The translations under genes and the position numbers were made by a program. Below, piece after piece: positions 52,976-64,000 of a DNA stretch of 64,000 nt. Positions within the stretch are counted from its first letter, which is position 1; each line of letters begins with the position of its first letter. Below the pieces are notes generated by a model. It made no database searches. It was not told the DNA's origin and worked only from the letters and a program-made list of their open reading frames with translations. This stretch comes from an uncultured Dokdonia sp. (GTDB lineage: Bacteria; Bacteroidota; Bacteroidia; Flavobacteriales; Flavobacteriaceae). Where the stretch lies: assembly GCA_947503305.1 (NCBI GenBank), contig CANNDF010000001.1, positions 496,001 through 560,000 on the forward strand, given 5' to 3'.

Positions 52976-53929
52976 TTATATTTTTTGAAGCTTTTCTAGC
53001 TTTTTTGCTTTTAGAGCTTCAATATCTTTTTTAATATCTTCAGTTCTCTTTCTAAGTTTTGGAGTTTTTGCTCCATTCTCAGAAGTCTTATACTGTATAT
53101 ATCCTTTTCCTCTGAACTGATAAGTCGTTCCCGAACTTATTTGAAACAATTCTATGGTTTCATCATCTATAACGGTGAGCTCAAAGAATTCATTGTCTGG
53201 GAAATTGTAATCTAATGTTAAAGTTTTACGGTAAAAATCACCAGCAATATCATTCACATCATAGATCCCATCATAATCCCAAAATATAGTATCAATAGCC
53301 GTGCCATTTGTATCTTCAGAGCTTCTAAAGTTGCCAGTTAGACCAGCAGGAAGGAATTGAAGGAAGTTTTCATTATCAAAAGGATTGATTGCTCCTTCTT
53401 CACTGGTATATATTTTTTCCCATGCAATAAACTCTTGCAAGAAGTAATGAATATTCTCATAAAATACAAGATCATAATCAAAAGTACTTCTTTGATATCC
53501 TATCAAAACGTATCTAGCACCTGTAAGAGGATGATACAATTCAATCTCATTACCAGAAAGTTCTCTTACATCAAAAGAGTACGATCCATCTAAGTCATGA
53601 CTTACATCTAGTTCAAAGTCAAAAGTATTGTAATACCCTACATCAATACCAAAACCACCACCATTGGCTCCAATACCAGATAGGTTATTGTTTGCATATA
53701 TATTTCCGTTTCTAAAAGATACAGTAAATGCCTTTTGTAAAAATGGAACAACAGTATTACCGGAGGAACGATCAATATCTACATACCAGATTTCATAATC
53801 GTCTAGAACATCATCTAGAGTTACAAGAGGAATCTCTACAATATCATCTTCTATAATCACTTCTGCATAGCAGGAAGTAAATAGTGTTGCTAGTAAAGCA
53901 AATGCCGAAAGGAGTTTGATCGTCTTCAT
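52976..53929 (-). CDS. Hypothetical lipoprotein
   Basis: A 317-residue protein with a lipobox (LFTSCYAE, Cys20) and a strand-rich body (about 30-270) with no recognised catalytic motif. A repeated pattern of charged/hydrophobic strands (TLDDVLDDYEIWYVDID, DYDLVFYENIHYFLQEFIAW) suggests a lipocalin-like or propeller-like fold, but this is a guess. The C-terminus is Lys/Glu-rich and helical (DIKKDIEALKAKKLEKLQK). The closeness to nadD does not imply an NAD function. It has its own terminator. Confidence 0.72.
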   Translation of the reverse strand: MKTIKLLSAFALLATLFTSCYAEVIIEDDIVEIPLVTLDDVLDDYEIWYVDIDRSSGNTVVPFLQKAFTVSFRNGNIYANNNLSGIGANGGGFGIDVGYYNTFDFELDVSHDLDGSYSFDVRELSGNEIELYHPLTGARYVLIGYQRSTFDYDLVFYENIHYFLQEFIAWEKIYTSEEGAINPFDNENFLQFLPAGLTGNFRSSEDTNGTAIDTIFWDYDGIYDVNDIAGDFYRKTLTLDYNFPDNEFFELTVIDDETIELFQISSGTTYQFRGKGYIQYKTSENGAKTPKLRKRTEDIKKDIEALKAKKLEKLQKI

Positions 53930-55121: not shown

Positions 55122-56324
55122 TTATAAAAAAGAATACCCTATGGTTGCCGAAAATGCTGAATAATTACTATTTAACGTTTTAAGCAAACTTCTTTTCGAA
55201 ATATACCTTAGTTCTATACTAAAATCTTTAAATTCAAATCCACCTCCAAAAACGGCACTTGCTACATTCGAGAACTCGTCTAAATCAGTAGAAAGACTTC
55301 GGGTTAAAGATTCATCAAAATGAAGAGGGGTTACATAACTAACGTTTAAAAACAATCGGGAATCATCATTTAAAAAGAATGAATGTCTTATTCCTATCCC
55401 TAGCTCAATACCACTATAATCGATCGCAACATCTTGATCAAAAGCTCCTAGATCTAGTCTGTTTTCATCACTATAGTCAAAGTAAGTCGCATCTAGTAAC
55501 GCACTCCACTTGTTTCTATTAAATTTAAAAATAAACTCTCCTTCTAGACCAAGCTGTATGCCTACCTTATCTGGAAAATCTATATTTAATCCACTACTTG
55601 TTTCATAGGAAAACATATTATTGCGTATTCCTGCTTTAACTCTAAGTCTGATCTTCTGCTCTCCTTCAGAAATTTTAGATACTTGTTTGTATTCAGTAGA
55701 TGTAGAATTACTACAGGTATTATAATTCTTAAAAAGTGTAGAGAGTTCTTCTTTCCTGTATTTTAATTTTTCAAAGGTTTTTACAGTAAAGTTTGTGCAA
55801 TTAAGATCTGTTTTAAGTTGTTGTTTATACCTTTCATTTGTACCTATATCACTATTAATCATCTGAAATCTCTTATAGATCAATTGTTGTATAGGACTAT
55901 TATCATGAGTATAAAAAAAGCGTACTACACCAAAACCCGAATAGAAATATAAAGAGGCCTTTCCTTCTATGATTTTTTTAAGTAAAAGTTCTTCTTCTTC
56001 AAATATAGGGGCTCTTGTCTCACTCAAATTATTAGTAGCATCACTCGACTTATCTATAGCTACCTTATATCTAGTATATACAGCTCCATTTGTAATTCCA
56101 AATTCTTTAATCTCAGATTTTGTTATAGTGACACTTTGAGAATTTTCGGTTGACTTAAATTTAATCTCTGAAGGATTATCCAACCATTCAACATTCTCAA
56201 TAAAACCTTCTACACGATTACTTGTATTATCTATATAATATCCTTGTTCAAAATTTATTTGAGCAGATAGTATAGTAGGTAAACAAAAAAATATAATAGG
56301 TAGAAGTATCTTTATGACACGCAT
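55122..56324 (-). CDS. Hypothetical outer-membrane protein
   Basis: A 400-residue protein with a signal peptide (ending FCLPTILSAQ) and an N-terminal soluble region (about 20-200) followed by a beta-barrel tail (about 215-400) ending SAFSATIGYSFL. No known enzyme motif is seen. I start it at the ATG at 56324; an in-frame TTG at 56351 gives a less natural signal peptide. The gene is downstream of a small hypothetical gene and convergent with gpsA. Confidence 0.7.
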   Translation of the reverse strand: MRVIKILLPIIFFCLPTILSAQINFEQGYYIDNTSNRVEGFIENVEWLDNPSEIKFKSTENSQSVTITKSEIKEFGITNGAVYTRYKVAIDKSSDATNNLSETRAPIFEEEELLLKKIIEGKASLYFYSGFGVVRFFYTHDNSPIQQLIYKRFQMINSDIGTNERYKQQLKTDLNCTNFTVKTFEKLKYRKEELSTLFKNYNTCSNSTSTEYKQVSKISEGEQKIRLRVKAGIRNNMFSYETSSGLNIDFPDKVGIQLGLEGEFIFKFNRNKWSALLDATYFDYSDENRLDLGAFDQDVAIDYSGIELGIGIRHSFFLNDDSRLFLNVSYVTPLHFDESLTRSLSTDLDEFSNVASAVFGGGFEFKDFSIELRYISKRSLLKTLNSNYSAFSATIGYSFL

Positions 56325-56374
56325 ATAAATAGATTTTATAAAAGGAGGCAAACATAGGTGTTTTTGATAGATAA

Positions 56375-58359: not shown

Positions 58360-59499
58360 TTAAAATTTCCAACGTACACCTACTCCCATATATTGATTAC
58401 GATATGCTCTAAATGAGCGTGCATCTATATCTGTAAAATTTGTGTTTCGAACTCTACTGTATAGTGATGCGGTGGCATATAAGTTTTTTAGAATACGATG
58501 CTCTGCGGAGATACTTATATCTGCATATGTATACTGAATATTTTCACCTATCAAACCATTATTATCCCTAGCTTGAAGTGTTTTATAATCTCTAGTTAAG
58601 TAAGAGATTTTTCCTCTGACTTTTGTTTTTGCGCTCGCATATTTAATTGCTAGAGAAGGACCGTATTGTGTAAATCCTGAACGATCTAGTAAATTATCAA
58701 TACGTTGGTAGTAAATAAGAGAAGGTTTTATTTCAATTTCTTTTGAGAAAGGAAGTTCATAAAATATAGATGCTTTTACATAGTCCCAATCCCGTTCTCC
58801 TTCTGAGTCAATATTTGAGGCATTGAATGTAGTATATAATCGCTTATTAGCAGTGATGGTTCCTCCATAACTATGTTTGCGTTTTCCAACATAAAAAGAT
58901 TGTACACTTTTAATCCTGATTCCAAATTCATTATACTGTAAATCCTGTACTCCAAAAGCATCAAAGTTTTTAAAATTGTAAAACCCTTCAACAGTACTTT
59001 TATTTCTTTTTAAAAGTGCAAATTCAATTCCTGTTGATGCTCCATACTTCGTATATCCTAATGGATTTATCAATACGTCTTGTGCCCCGTCTAGGCCCTC
59101 TCTATTCATTCTTTTTAGAGAAAGCTCAGCGAGGATCTTTGTAGTACGCGATAACTTCGTGTCATACTTTACACTTCCTAAAAAACTCCAATAACTATCA
59201 TCAGAAGCTTCATTGAAATATCGTACAAAAGGTGTTGCAGAAAATCGTAATCGATTTGCGCCCCATTTAATTCTATAGTCATAATCGGCTTTAATATCTT
59301 GATAACTACTGCTGGCAATAAGAGAATCAGCATTGAATAGGATTCCATTTTGCCTTACCTCAGTAGGGCTTTTAAAATAATTATATTCATATCCGCTTTG
59401 AAGTTCGATATCAAAACGATGTTTTTGTTCGCTTTGTGCGTAAACAGTTATTTGGGTAAAAAAAAGGATACTGCTTATGATTAGATACGTTTTTTTCAT
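58360..59499 (-). CDS. Outer-membrane beta-barrel protein of the TG-7TM/ATP-grasp cluster
   Basis: A 379-residue protein with a signal peptide (about 1-22, ITVYAQS) and about 14-16 amphipathic strands ending in YMGVGVRWKF, so an outer-membrane barrel. No ligand motif is seen. It lies 76 bases downstream of the ATP-grasp gene and has its own copy of the GGGTAGGGT-N14-CTGTT element upstream (59529-59561). It probably transports or senses the product of the ligase and transglutaminase-type proteins; this is inference. Confidence 0.78.
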   Translation of the reverse strand: MKKTYLIISSILFFTQITVYAQSEQKHRFDIELQSGYEYNYFKSPTEVRQNGILFNADSLIASSSYQDIKADYDYRIKWGANRLRFSATPFVRYFNEASDDSYWSFLGSVKYDTKLSRTTKILAELSLKRMNREGLDGAQDVLINPLGYTKYGASTGIEFALLKRNKSTVEGFYNFKNFDAFGVQDLQYNEFGIRIKSVQSFYVGKRKHSYGGTITANKRLYTTFNASNIDSEGERDWDYVKASIFYELPFSKEIEIKPSLIYYQRIDNLLDRSGFTQYGPSLAIKYASAKTKVRGKISYLTRDYKTLQARDNNGLIGENIQYTYADISISAEHRILKNLYATASLYSRVRNTNFTDIDARSFRAYRNQYMGVGVRWKF

Positions 59500-59528: not shown

Positions 59529-59561
59529 TAGGGAACAGTTGATTATAAATACACCCTACCC
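59529..59561 (-). promoter_or_regulatory. Bipartite ECF-type promoter candidate, barrel gene
   Basis: On the minus strand GGGTAGGGT (59561-59553) is followed after exactly 14 bases by CTGTTCCCTA (59538-59529), 30 bases upstream of the ATG. The same pair and spacing precede the TG-7TM gene and fecR. Confidence 0.8.
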
Positions 59562-59575
59562 CCTCCTGATTATTT

Positions 59576-60487
59576 TTATAAAGAAATAGTATGTTTTATT
59601 TGTTGGAAGTATGCTGGATAGTGTTTGTTGACAACACTTTCTAAACCGCATCGATTTACAAGTTGTATGCCTAGTCCAGGTCGTACATTTACTTCCATAA
59701 TTTGAGGACCTTTGTGCATATCAAGCACAATATCAATACCCATAAAATCTAATGGAAATACGTTTGCAGTATCTATAGCTAATTGGTACATTTTTTCCCA
59801 AAAAGGAATTTTCTTACCTACAATAATGTTTGGGTTATCAGGATGATGGTGCAAATATTTTTTTCCATCATATACTTGAGTGAGTGTTCCTTGTTCCATA
59901 TTAATTCCAATCCCAACTCCTTTTTGATGTAAATTGGCTTTTCCATCAGATTTTGAAGTAGGCATACGTAGCATTCCCATCAGTGGTTTTCCCTTGAGTG
60001 TAATAATTCTAAAATCAGGAACTCCATCTCCATATATTTCTGAAAAAAAAGGATGAGGAATAATACATTCTTCTATAAGGCAACTATCTGTAGAACCCAT
60101 AGAGAACATTCCGCTTATAATAGCAGTGATATGTTGAAATATCATAGCTTCAGAAAACAAAGTATTTCCATTTTTCCACTGTCCACTTTTATCTTTTTTA
60201 ATAATTTTTATTCCGTCACCTCCACAACCGTTTGCAGGTTTTATTGCAAGTGCTTGATAATGTTTACAATCGTTCCATTTATGCTTGATCTCCCGTATTT
60301 GTGTAATGACGGAATATGTTTTTGCGCAAGCAATACCATGTAAATGAAGGGTTTCTTTAGTTTTTATTTTATCATCAGCTAGATGATAAAATTGCCTTTC
60401 ATTATTAGGGTAAATTAAGGTCAAATTACGCTTGTTAAGACCGATTGCTCCAGTTGGATTCTTGAAATTAAATAGGTTATGAAACAT
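59576..60487 (-). CDS. RimK-like ATP-grasp ligase (alpha-L-glutamate ligase-like)
   Basis: A 303-residue ATP-grasp enzyme that probably forms an amide between a carboxylate and an amine using ATP. It has the glycine-rich loop KPANGCGGDGIKIIKKD (83-99), the ATP-binding segment LIEECIIPHPFFSEIYGDGV and the Mg2+ motif MEVNVRPGLGIQ with Glu265/Asn267. It overlaps the upstream TG-7TM gene by 11 bases. I place the start at the ATG at 60487; a longer frame (60550) would overlap by 74 bases. The amino donor and acceptor are unknown. Confidence 0.9.
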   Translation of the reverse strand: MFHNLFNFKNPTGAIGLNKRNLTLIYPNNERQFYHLADDKIKTKETLHLHGIACAKTYSVITQIREIKHKWNDCKHYQALAIKPANGCGGDGIKIIKKDKSGQWKNGNTLFSEAMIFQHITAIISGMFSMGSTDSCLIEECIIPHPFFSEIYGDGVPDFRIITLKGKPLMGMLRMPTSKSDGKANLHQKGVGIGINMEQGTLTQVYDGKKYLHHHPDNPNIIVGKKIPFWEKMYQLAIDTANVFPLDFMGIDIVLDMHKGPQIMEVNVRPGLGIQLVNRCGLESVVNKHYPAYFQQIKHTISL

Positions 60488-62063
60488 GAGCAGAATTTTT
60501 TGAAAATAATAAAGGTTTGAAACGTAGTAATTCTGTCCAACGAAGACCAATGTACCTCCCCAGTAATAGGGCTATAACGATGATAACAAATAGAATTTCT
60601 GGAAACAGGATAATAACAAAACTCATGTATTGACTTGACAGCATAGTATAGCATACAGTTACTGCGATTAATGTTTGAAAAAGTGTCCCTGTTGCTTTTT
60701 CAAAACCATCCTCTACAATTAATGTAGAAAAACGTTCTGCAGATACAGTTAAGATAATTGTTGGAAATAACGTAAGGGATGTTAACCATAGCATATTGTA
60801 TCTAAGCCCTATATAAGAACCAAAAATCATAATGAGAACCATTAAGGTTAAGGAAACAACAAGCTTAGGGGTATGTAACAAACCTAAGCGTTGAAATGGT
60901 CTAGAAATTAACCCTACTAATAAAATTAGAAATATGAAAAGGAGTATTCCTGTAAAATAACCAGTTTCAACAAGAGAAAAGGCAATAAGTACAGGAAGAA
61001 ATACACCAAAAGTTTGTAGCCCTACTACATTACGTAAAAAAGCAACGAGTAACCCACCTAGGGGAAGCATCAACAATAATGTTAAGGCATGCGTACTGAT
61101 GGTTTTATTATCTACAAGTTCCCAGAGTGAGATGGGAGATATATCGCTAAACTGTGAGGCACTTAATCGTAAAAAAGGGATATTTACTTTCTCATTAATT
61201 GTATAGTTATAATTAAGAGTCATTCCTTTTGTATGAGTTATTAATGCCTGATCCCCTTCATATAATTCCATATAATTTGCAGGGATATATCCAAAATGAT
61301 CGTTTAAAGCATCAAAAGGGATCCAGTTCCCATTGATAAAAACTTCTGCCCACGAATGGGAAGTACGTTTACTAGTTTCTTCAAGTATTAGTCCCCCTTT
61401 CATTCGAGCTGGAATACCTGCATTTCTAGAAAGAGCAATGAGTAATCTGGTTTTACCGTTACAAGAAGCATACTTTTGATCTAAAACTGTAAGTGCATCA
61501 GAGAGTGTAATAATAGGCGCTTCAGGGATTGCTAAAGCAATGTCATATATACCCCGCATTAATTGTCTATCTGTAGTGGCGTACTTTTTTAAAGAATCTA
61601 TGATTACAGTAATACGTGGATGATCAGATTGAATATTTTTAGTCTCTAGAAGATAGTTTTCAGCAGTCACAGAGTCATATGTTATAAATGTTTCTGGGAT
61701 AGAGTAGATTTTTTCTTTTCCTTCGAATGTAAATTGATATTCAAGGGATTCATGAATATTAGGAGTATTTGTAGTCCATATAGCCTTTATATTATTTGCA
61801 AAGGCTTTCTGTTGCATATCAATAGTTCCCCTATATTTATATGCAGAAATACGTTGCCTATCATTATTTTTAGGAATAAAGGTTTTGATAGAAGTATTAT
61901 CTTCTGTTGTTTTAAAGAAAAACTGGTAGGATATATCAAACATCGTATCTGTATAGAACGAGTCATAATACTTGCCTACTTGAACCCCTTTATTTACAAG
62001 ACTTACTAAAGAAATTAAGGTAAATAGTATAACTGTATTTTTAAAATTAATACGTTTTTTCAT
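60477..62063 (-). CDS. Transglutaminase-like 7TM membrane protein
   Basis: A 528-residue protein: an N-terminal signal-anchor helix (about 9-26), a periplasmic region with a transglutaminase-like fold (about 150-270) and seven predicted helices (about 320-515). The triad is visible: Cys201 (ASCNGKTRLLIAL), His236 (SHSWAEVF) and Asp251 (PFDALND). Related proteins are often described as inactive transglutaminases fused to 7TM. It overlaps the ATP-grasp gene, so both form one operon. The element at 62085-62117 precedes it. Function is not known. Confidence 0.9.
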   Translation of the reverse strand: MKKRINFKNTVILFTLISLVSLVNKGVQVGKYYDSFYTDTMFDISYQFFFKTTEDNTSIKTFIPKNNDRQRISAYKYRGTIDMQQKAFANNIKAIWTTNTPNIHESLEYQFTFEGKEKIYSIPETFITYDSVTAENYLLETKNIQSDHPRITVIIDSLKKYATTDRQLMRGIYDIALAIPEAPIITLSDALTVLDQKYASCNGKTRLLIALSRNAGIPARMKGGLILEETSKRTSHSWAEVFINGNWIPFDALNDHFGYIPANYMELYEGDQALITHTKGMTLNYNYTINEKVNIPFLRLSASQFSDISPISLWELVDNKTISTHALTLLLMLPLGGLLVAFLRNVVGLQTFGVFLPVLIAFSLVETGYFTGILLFIFLILLVGLISRPFQRLGLLHTPKLVVSLTLMVLIMIFGSYIGLRYNMLWLTSLTLFPTIILTVSAERFSTLIVEDGFEKATGTLFQTLIAVTVCYTMLSSQYMSFVIILFPEILFVIIVIALLLGRYIGLRWTELLRFKPLLFSKNSAHVS

Positions 62064-62084
62064 AATAGTTTTCGTTAATTTGAT

Positions 62085-62117
62085 GATAGAACAGGTATCT
62101 TGATGTATACCCTACCC
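62085..62117 (-). promoter_or_regulatory. Bipartite ECF-type promoter candidate, TG-7TM operon
   Basis: On the minus strand GGGTAGGGT (62117-62109) is followed after 14 bases by CTGTTCTATC (62094-62085), 22 bases upstream of the ATG of the TG-7TM gene. It lies within the 70-base divergent gap with the sigma gene. Confidence 0.82.
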
Positions 62118-62133
62118 TTAGTAGTTAAAATTT

Positions 62134-62646
62134 ATGGCAGATACTACATCATCAGTTTGTGATCAAAATGTTTTTAATACCATCTTCGAAGAACAAGCTG
62201 AATCTTTACGGAATTATTTATACTATCAATGTAAAGACCTACAACAAGCAGAAGATCTAACACAAGAAGCTTTTATAAAACTTTGGAACAACTGCAAGAA
62301 AGTCCTTTATAACAAAGCGCGTGGATTCTTATATGCAGTAAGTAAAAACGCTTTTTATAATCAAGTTGCTCATAATAAGGTAAAGTTTGCATATGCAAAA
62401 AAGCCACAGCGTATTGCCGATATTGAAACACCAGAGTTTATCATGGAGGAATCAGAGTTTATGGATAAACTTCAACGTGCTTTAAATGCATTACCAGATG
62501 GGCAAAGAGAAGTCTTTTTATTAAATAGAATTGATAAAAAAACATATAAAGAAATTGCCGAATTACTAGGAGTATCTCAAAAAGCCATCGAAAAAAGAAT
62601 GCATAAGGCCCTTAGTAAACTGCGGGTTACGATAGGAAATATTTAA
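62134..62646 (+). CDS. ECF RNA polymerase sigma factor
   Basis: A 170-residue sigma-70-family ECF factor. Region 2 is LYYQCKDLQQAEDLTQEAFI then KLWNNC (about 28-55); region 4 is LPDGQREVFLLNRIDKKTYK then EIAELLGVSQKAIEKRMH (about 128-168). In Bacteroidota such factors control TonB/SusCD loci with FecR. It is divergent from the TG-7TM operon with 70 bases between the starts, and followed by fecR 66 bases later. No GGGTAGGGT element is seen in its own orientation. Confidence 0.94.
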   Translation: MADTTSSVCDQNVFNTIFEEQAESLRNYLYYQCKDLQQAEDLTQEAFIKLWNNCKKVLYNKARGFLYAVSKNAFYNQVAHNKVKFAYAKKPQRIADIETPEFIMEESEFMDKLQRALNALPDGQREVFLLNRIDKKTYKEIAELLGVSQKAIEKRMHKALSKLRVTIGNI

Positions 62647-62661
62647 AAAAATAAAAGTAGG

Positions 62662-62694
62662 GGGTAGGGTAAAGTTAAAGATCCCTGTTTCCTA
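62662..62694 (+). promoter_or_regulatory. Bipartite ECF-type promoter candidate, fecR-receptor operon
   Basis: GGGTAGGGT (62662-62670), exactly 14 bases, then CTGTTTCCTA (62685-62694), 18 bases upstream of the fecR ATG. Confidence 0.82.
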
Positions 62695-62712: not shown

Positions 62713-63624
62713 ATGTTTGAAGAAAAAGACGATACGATACTAGCTCGCTGGCTAGCGGGCGATCTTACTCCAGAAGAATTAAAGGAATTTAAAGAATCTG
62801 AAGAGTATGGGCAGTATGTATCTATCGTCAAAGGCTTAGATCGATTAGAAAAACCTTTATTTGATAAAGTATCATTAAAAGAACGTATTAATCATGCATT
62901 ACCTGAGAAATCTCCAGAGACTAACGTTTTTTCTATCAAGCGTTTGGTAAGTATATCGGCAATTGCTGCAACTATTTTGTTACTATTTGGACTGTTCTTT
63001 ACAAAGGTTTCCTATACTACAGAAATAGGAGAAACATTGATAATTACGCTTCCTGATGGTACCTATGTGTCTATGAATTCAGCATCTACACTATCTCATA
63101 AACGTTTCTTTTGGAATAGTAACCGCAAGGTTTCCTTAGATGGAGAAGCCTTCTTTGACGTGACTTCTGGAGATGACTTTGTGGTGACTACGGCTTACGG
63201 TGAGGTGGCTGTTTTAGGAACAGAGTTTAACATTCACACCCGAAAAAAACATTTTGAATTGGCTTGCTATGAGGGGAAGGTCAAGTATACCAATAATAAT
63301 ACGCAAGAATCTGCGCAATTGACTCCAGGAAAAGCCATAGAAGTACAAAGTGATACTATTACTCCCAAAGCCGCTGGCGAATCACCTTCATGGATGCTCG
63401 GCAAATCACAATTTAATAGCACGCCATTACGAGAAGTGCTAGAAGATTTACAACTACATTATCCTCTTACTGTAAAGACAGATACCATAGACTTGGATCA
63501 ATTATTTACAGGTAGCTTTAGATATGATAACTTAGACCTGGCCTTACGAACCATTTGTCTTACAATGGGATTAGAATATACATTTTCAAATAACAAACAA
63601 TCAGTGACCCTCACTAAGCGTTAA
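62713..63624 (+). CDS. FecR family anti-sigma factor
   Basis: A 303-residue single-pass membrane protein. The cytosolic N-terminus (1-76) has the sigma-binding-type ILARWLAGDLTPEELKEFKE; one helix is at 78-97; the periplasmic FecR domain is at about 105-215 (TLPDGTYVSMNSASTLSHKR, VSLDGEAFFDV). The C-terminal part (about 235-303, NSTPLREVLEDLQLHYPLTV) is the STN-like region. It relays receptor occupancy to the ECF factor. The receptor gene follows 9 bases later. Confidence 0.94.
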   Translation: MFEEKDDTILARWLAGDLTPEELKEFKESEEYGQYVSIVKGLDRLEKPLFDKVSLKERINHALPEKSPETNVFSIKRLVSISAIAATILLLFGLFFTKVSYTTEIGETLIITLPDGTYVSMNSASTLSHKRFFWNSNRKVSLDGEAFFDVTSGDDFVVTTAYGEVAVLGTEFNIHTRKKHFELACYEGKVKYTNNNTQESAQLTPGKAIEVQSDTITPKAAGESPSWMLGKSQFNSTPLREVLEDLQLHYPLTVKTDTIDLDQLFTGSFRYDNLDLALRTICLTMGLEYTFSNNKQSVTLTKR

Positions 63625-63633
63625 GTATATTCT

Positions 63634-64000
63634 ATGAAGAAATTGCTTTTTATAGTTATTTTATTGTTGAGCGGGATATTGTATGGTCAAAATATACTTC
63701 AAGTATCCTATAATAATACACCGCTTCGAGAGGTAATTACAGATATTGAATCAAAAACAACGGTTCAGTTCTCATATAATGATAGTACGCTTTCGCGAAA
63801 GCGTATAACATATAAAAACCCCTCAATTACTTTACTAGAACTACTCGCTGTTTTGACACAACAAACTGGACTTACTTTTGATAAAGCATCTGATTCACAA
63901 GTGCTTATTTATATTCCGGACACTACACTAACCGTATGTGGGTATATTTTTGATATAGAGACCAACACACCTTTATCTTTTACAAATATTATAGTTGTAA
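63634..64000 (+). CDS. SusC/FecA-type TonB-dependent receptor with STN domain (partial)
   Basis: The frame is open to the end of the window (122 codons). A signal peptide (1-18, ILYGQN) is followed by an STN domain (about 22-95, NNTPLREVITDIESKTTVQF) and the start of a carboxypeptidase-regulatory domain (CGYIFDIETNTPLSFTNIIV). This layout is that of signalling TonB receptors paired with FecR/ECF factors. The plug and barrel lie beyond the window. An exact dispersed palindrome in the STN region is read as TLSRKR. Confidence 0.92.
   Translation, partial: MKKLLFIVILLLSGILYGQNILQVSYNNTPLREVITDIESKTTVQFSYNDSTLSRKRITYKNPSITLLELLAVLTQQTGLTFDKASDSQVLIYIPDTTLTVCGYIFDIETNTPLSFTNIIVV
63789..63802. repeat. 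Dispersed palindrome, exact copy (in STN receptor gene)
   Basis: Perfect GCTTTCGCGAAAGC within ACGCTTTCGCGAAAGCGT, inside the STN domain. The frame gives LSRK, not AFAKA. Confidence 0.95.

Follow-up and report, generated by a model that had tools for sequence, protein, structure and literature searches.

A promoter-like element before three units of an envelope gene cluster in Dokdonia and its candidate extracytoplasmic function sigma factor

What ties together the genes of a small bacterial cluster in which a sigma factor, a receptor and several putative envelope proteins lie side by side? In 64,000 nucleotides of DNA from an uncultured Dokdonia sp. of the Flavobacteriaceae (assembly GCA_947503305.1, contig CANNDF010000001.1, positions 496,001 to 560,000; this whole stretch is referred to as the window), the two-part element GGGTAGGGT-N14-CTGTT stands before three units of one such cluster, and a gene for an extracytoplasmic function (ECF) sigma factor lies between two of the copies. 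An initial annotation took the element for an ECF -35/-10 promoter that is read by the adjacent sigma factor and took the three units for one regulon. According to the sections of two earlier studies used here, ECF promoter prediction in Bacteroidota is challenging and requires start-site data (2013; PMC3878776), and no alternative ECF of B. thetaiotaomicron had a known motif of this kind (2020; PMC7366714). Among the matches listed from the open-licence literature, we recognised no paper that describes a sigma motif of the form GGGTAGGG, GGGTA or GTAGGGT.

In this paper we describe the distribution, geometry and conservation of the element. It is very probably the promoter of the ECF encoded at 62134-62646, which would jointly control a unit of fecR and a TonB-dependent receptor, an operon encoding a transglutaminase-seven-transmembrane (TG-7TM) protein and an ATP-grasp ligase, and a gene for a predicted outer-membrane barrel.

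Three copies with a promoter-like geometry

The window contains three exact 28-mers of GGGTAGGGT-N14-CTGTT, each oriented toward a gene: 62090-62117 on the minus strand before the TG-7TM/ATP-grasp operon (predicted RNA start 62081, 18-nt leader), 59534-59561 on the minus strand before the barrel gene (predicted start 59525, 26-nt leader), and 62662-62689 on the plus strand before fecR and the receptor (predicted start 62698, 15-nt leader). These are the three copies of the initial annotation, whose coordinates span 33 bases, that is, the 28-mer and five further bases; its distance of 18-30 bases to the start codon was measured as 21, 29 and 18 bases past the end of the 33-base sites. The 14 spacer bases are not alike among the three copies, and no copy in the window is directed into the ECF gene.

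Neither 100 dinucleotide shuffles of the window nor a reversed control pattern run against the whole genome gave a single match, and the genome itself (4,264,867 bases) holds exactly the three sites, all within the cluster. A fourth exact copy, of which the initial annotation noticed none in the window, is absent from the whole genome, and the element is not scattered. With a profile of 58 columns that draws on 45 sites from loci elsewhere, the window's own sites being left out, the three reach 42.8, 42.2 and 38.6, and the next window position reaches 4.3. With the own sites in the model and the best 150 of 4223 first-look candidates scored, the whole-genome search returned the three cluster sites at E = 3.8e-9, 6.2e-9 and 4.0e-8 and the next match at 0.09. 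A relaxed search with 3 mismatches allowed gave noise (191 matches vs 229 for the control). A scattered repeat is rejected, since exact and profile searches place the element in the cluster alone.

The distance between the two blocks is nearly invariant. When spacings of 8-20 were allowed between GTNGGGT and C[TG]GTT, 94 of 95 pairings had 14 bases. Counted from the first G, position +36 is a purine in 33/33 sites and +35 a pyrimidine in 29/33. As this pattern was first seen after the fact, it was checked on 96 further sites outside the profile, which were located from the core columns alone and are related to one another rather than independent; a purine occupies the predicted start in 95 of them and a pyrimidine precedes it in 78. 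A pyrimidine-purine initiator signature at a constant place fits the start of an ECF promoter. On this reading GGGTAGGGT would be the -35 box, at about -36 to -28, CTGTTYH the -10 box, from -13, and transcription would start at the purine 36 bases past the first G.

The two other ECF-FecR pairs of the home genome, read by eye, have AGGTAGGGG-N14-TTGTT and GTTTGGGAC-N14-TTGTT before fecR, that is, the same geometry with different -35 words. As a separate observation, two sites in genome G000 (C1:606776 and C1:1113531) have TAGGGGATTTAGA in common; a second small regulon around them is possible because the first precedes a paralogous fecR.

Conservation with the sigma factor and the operon

One scan of genome contigs with the 7TM alignment gave 69 loci in named genomes, the nearest being that of a Dokdonia metagenome-assembled genome (MAG). 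An ECF homologue lies within 5.5 kb in 56 of the 69 and is divergent in 55 of these 56. The ECF-linked loci belong mostly to Flavobacteriaceae (44), the rest to Saprospiraceae, Crocinitomicaceae, Roseivirgaceae, Prolixibacteraceae and Marinifilaceae, together with one Balneolota MAG and two loci of unnamed family. The profile alignment (48 rows) omits L028 and L029, which are included in the 33-site initiator count. An element above threshold precedes the 7TM gene in 54/56 ECF-linked loci and fecR in 51/56, and so is not absent from orthologous loci. Degenerate look-alikes were seen by eye at the misses L200 and L209 (7TM side) and L204, L208 and L212 (fecR side), and none before fecR in L207; the fecR site of L209 lies 238 bases off, where the limit allowed was 160.

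The barrel behaves differently from these two units. Its own element is present in 7 of the 52 ECF-linked loci where a barrel was found, and an own promoter for the barrel is therefore a minority feature. The initial annotation's reading is to be amended in this respect. L210, which falls outside this count, has a barrel-side site on a contig that stops before any ECF.

Among the 13 loci without a nearby ECF, three (L206, L213, L214) have a passing site ahead of the 7TM gene, and their genomes encode an ECF of 53-54% identity elsewhere. L205 and L210 are also counted among the 13, the sequence upstream of their 7TM gene being wholly or mostly missing, and the remaining eight have no site over threshold before the 7TM gene when judged by the core columns. 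The 970,700 bases of the loci hold 20 further matches; 11 of them, in Aquimarina-type loci, lie within about 30 bases 3' of the 7TM gene and, from positions compared by eye, presumably precede the ATP-grasp gene.

A sample of 397 family genomes gives a similar picture. The exact element occurs in 44 of them (the home genome counted) at 56 sites, vs 6 for the reversed control, and an ECF homologue lies within the 3-kb locus in 15 of 29 loci fetched from these matches. A protein search, in which the best nine or fewer candidates were scored per genome, found an ECF of at least 65% identity in 10 genomes; the 7TM family exceeds its cut-off in 16, which include all 10. In each of the 10 ECF-bearing genomes, fecR and the 7TM gene are both preceded by the element. 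The variant before the 7TM gene is often GGGTGGGGT or GGGTTGGGT; G288 has TTGTT as the -10 box there, and in G120 the fecR site combines GGGTGGGGT with CGGTT. We fetched nine loci with such an ECF and five with a 7TM gene but without it, leaving out G146; the order 7TM, ATP-grasp, barrel is retained in 13 of these 14, L103 being interrupted by a contig end. Where the sampled operon lacks an ECF match in its locus (five genomes), no profile site lies nearby at E <= 1. Related ECFs, the element and the envelope genes thus recur together in many related bacteria.

Two loci of this sample stand apart. In L107 the 7TM gene is broken across two frames, by sequencing error or as a broken gene, and it was excluded from the second alignment (A2). 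The 7TM match at C58:304-1041 of G146 (E 4.6e-107) is much stronger than those of the other family members, and transfer or contamination is suggested.

In a quick ECF tree of 91 rows, whose deep forks are poorly supported and in which a distant second match (L191_1) forms its own group, linkage to the 7TM operon, present in 57 rows, takes 4 changes to explain vs 27.7 in shuffles. Ancylomarina and a Prolixibacteraceae MAG sit in a 20-row, otherwise Flavobacteriaceae clade (SH-like approximate likelihood ratio test, SH-aLRT, 99). This nesting suggests transfer of the cluster or, for the Prolixibacteraceae MAG, an error in the MAG.

Which factor reads the element

Several results weigh against the adjacent ECF as the reader of the element, or narrow what the conservation says. 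The association of ECF and element across the tree amounts to 3-4 independent changes, and because just these changes are available an independent-pairs test of ECF against element, on a tree from which L205 and L210 were excluded, was not significant (median p 1). Aquimarina contributes 26 of the 56 ECF-linked loci. The full profile gives L188 and L211, which have no nearby ECF, scores of 16.3 and 16.1 vs a shuffled maximum of -2.1, and neither locus passes with the core alone; G220, with no ECF match in its locus, has a differently spaced look-alike before the 7TM gene. The whole-genome profile searches scored just 150 first-look candidates per genome. Lastly, other ECF-FecR pairs have the core as well, which makes any specificity for one ECF putative. 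In 30 ECF loci of the family (52-100% identity, 10 of them the closest ECFs), a GTAGGGT core with the -10-like box that the search demanded precedes fecR in 22. L058 has 6 of the 7 GTAGGGT letters there, and the core search was empty at L064, L067, L069, L070, L071, L072 and L081. A look-alike was seen by eye at L064, L067, L069 and L072, which leaves L070, L071 and L081 (3/30) without such a site before fecR.

The wider family also uses the motif in other places. In family loci without an ECF match, the genes that follow exact sites include those for lipoproteins of the YHYH, DUF4382, di-haem peroxidase and GDSL types and for a weakly matched haem-binding protein; the wider ECF set therefore probably runs several regulons. 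In L022, L025 and L027 exact elements precede lipoproteins of the twin-arginine translocation (Tat) type with long GYYGDGYY-like repeats; by eye, the terminal domain in L025 and L027 resembles repeats of an ECF-adjacent lipoprotein in L024 and L045.

These observations bear on how far the promoter belongs to the adjacent sigma factor. As the core belongs to a wider ECF-FecR set, it is possible that paralogous ECFs read the motif in other genomes. That another ECF of the home genome is the main or an additional reader of a genuine promoter of this kind, within a larger or shared regulon, seems unlikely. Such sharing would agree with the GTAGGGT-N14-CTGTT core that family ECFs of 52-59% identity often have before fecR, and with the distant extra sites of some ECF-bearing genomes, for example before a di-haem peroxidase gene in G096; however, the two other pairs of the home genome, as read by eye, use their own -35 words with TTGTT, and neither exact nor profile search found a further GGGTAGGGT-type site in that genome. 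That the element is instead an operator, bound by an activator or a repressor, is quite improbable: spaced conserved half-sites may also be transcription-factor sites, but the constant 14-base spacing, the gene-directed orientation, the purine at a set distance, the co-occurrence with ECF-FecR pairs and the geometry shared by paralogous pairs speak against it. A recent duplication or repeat of no regulatory meaning could account for three copies within 3.2 kb, yet it is already contradicted, since the spacers are unlike and several Bacteroidota families, as well as one Balneolota MAG, have the element before orthologous genes, and we give it almost no weight. The initial annotation's promoter read by the adjacent ECF is the supported reading, the part played by that sigma factor being inferred.

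No housekeeping TAnnTTTG box was found before the ECF gene in the window, and one was found in 3 of 53 loci. The ECF start codon and the -35 box of the 7TM promoter are 17-27 bases apart in 46 of the 53 loci, so that the 7TM promoter and the promoter of the ECF gene probably overlap.

Gene products and comparison with known systems

The ECF (62134-62646, plus strand, 170 aa) is FecI-like, with Sigma70_r2 and r4_2 domains; against TIGR02985 (Sig70_bacteroi1) it scores 111.6 bits, under the 126.4-bit cut-off. Its neighbours on the same strand are a FecR-type anti-sigma factor (62713-63624, 303 aa; FecR and FecR_C domains) and the TonB-dependent receptor (903 aa; CarbopepD_reg_2 and Plug), which starts at 63634 and runs past the end of the window at 64000 (L021:2634-5345). 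Residues 25-91 of the receptor are weakly FecR_C-like, at 23.7 bits in the whole protein (cut-off 24.4) and 26.7 bits on the fragment.

Divergent from this unit lie the 7TM and ATP-grasp genes and, after them, the barrel gene, all on the minus strand. The first product (60477-62063, 528 aa) joins a transglutaminase-like domain (PF01841) to a 7TM domain (PF14402); its AlphaFold2 model has a predicted local distance difference test (pLDDT) of 90.7. Cys201, His236 and Asp251 form a triad that 47 of 48 aligned rows keep, one Syntrophaceae row being the exception, and in 15 family 7TM proteins the Cys is retained in 14 and the His and Asp in all. The transglutaminase domain matches the fold of 3isr, a putative cysteine protease of Cytophaga hutchinsonii (template modelling score, TM, 0.75 on target). 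The ATP-grasp ligase (59576-60550; PF14397) is TIGR02291-like but under that family's cut-off, and its true start is probably the ATG at 60487. The third gene (58360-59499, 379 aa) encodes a predicted 16-strand outer-membrane barrel (AlphaFold2 pLDDT 93.3; 16 long strands by manual count) with no Pfam family and no PDB sequence relative at E <= 0.1. No function was assigned to it by fold; the best 50 PDB matches reach TM 0.24-0.50 on query length and are mostly porins, TonB receptors, FadL-like proteins and exopolysaccharide channels, with BcsC at the top (0.50). The search for known RNA elements gave manA alone, inside the ATP-grasp gene (E 0.8; 16.3 bits vs 55.2), and this was rejected. Elsewhere in the window, two proteins (52976-53929 and 55125-56351) have no Pfam match at E <= 0.001.

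The regulatory half of the cluster resembles the FecI-FecR-FecA system of the E. coli type as given in the consulted text of PMC9249621, with an ECF, a FecR-domain anti-sigma factor and a TonB receptor adjacent to one another and a promoter ahead of the receptor unit. It differs in that the further targets form a putative envelope machine in a divergent operon, that, judging by the element positions, the autoregulated unit contains fecR rather than the sigma gene, and that the N-terminal signalling domain of the receptor is weakly matched. By analogy with FecA-FecR-FecI, occupancy of the receptor would relieve FecR and free the ECF, which would then activate all three units jointly, with autoregulation through the unit of fecR and the receptor.

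The structural half recalls the rloABC genes of P. aeruginosa in those parts of PMC12239564 used here, where a RloB-like transglutaminase-7TM protein likewise stands beside a RloC-like ATP-grasp protein. In the home genome, which was the genome searched, no PF05618 (RimB/RloA-type) protease was found (0 matches); the Cys-His-Asp triad is intact, whereas the transglutaminase domain of proteobacterial RloB is called inactive; and a barrel gene and an adjacent ECF-FecR pair are added. With no such protease and an intact triad, the regulon resembles proteobacterial RloBC and not RloABC. The same source places 96% of RloB matches in Proteobacteria and 20% of RloA matches in Bacteroidota, so that the missing protease may not apply to all relatives. 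The promoters of SM6 in F. psychrophilum, also an ECF-type class in Flavobacteriaceae, differ in their CGT -10 box and in having several type IX secretion genes as targets; the main text of PMC9723704, figure logos aside, contains no GGG.

The products would form a trans-envelope machine, with a ligase in the cytoplasm, an inner-membrane protein whose periplasmic domain is of the cysteine transglutaminase or peptidase-like kind, and a channel in the outer membrane. Most likely this machine would make, process and either export or anchor a peptide- or glutamate-like envelope polymer. A glutamate-like product is suggested as a lead rather than a result because, in the same sections of PMC12239564, RloA cleaves polyglutamate in vitro and deletion of rloB or rloC rescues P. 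aeruginosa without RloA proteases, fully for the low-salt growth defect and partly for the other defects. More speculatively, the cluster might be a self-contained transferable envelope module of Bacteroidota, in which one ECF-FecR-receptor circuit with its own promoter class controls the ligase, the transglutaminase with its intact triad and the channel, whose receptor senses or retakes the product and whose sigma factor blocks its own gene, the resulting pulse being proposed on account of the short distance between the 7TM promoter and the ECF start codon.

Bacteroidota possess many ECF sigma/anti-sigma pairs whose promoters are hard to read, and a core with fixed spacing would allow the regulons of these ECFs to be predicted from sequence. 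In the cluster described here, a little-understood envelope system would be tied to a sensing receptor, so that both its signal and its product become testable.

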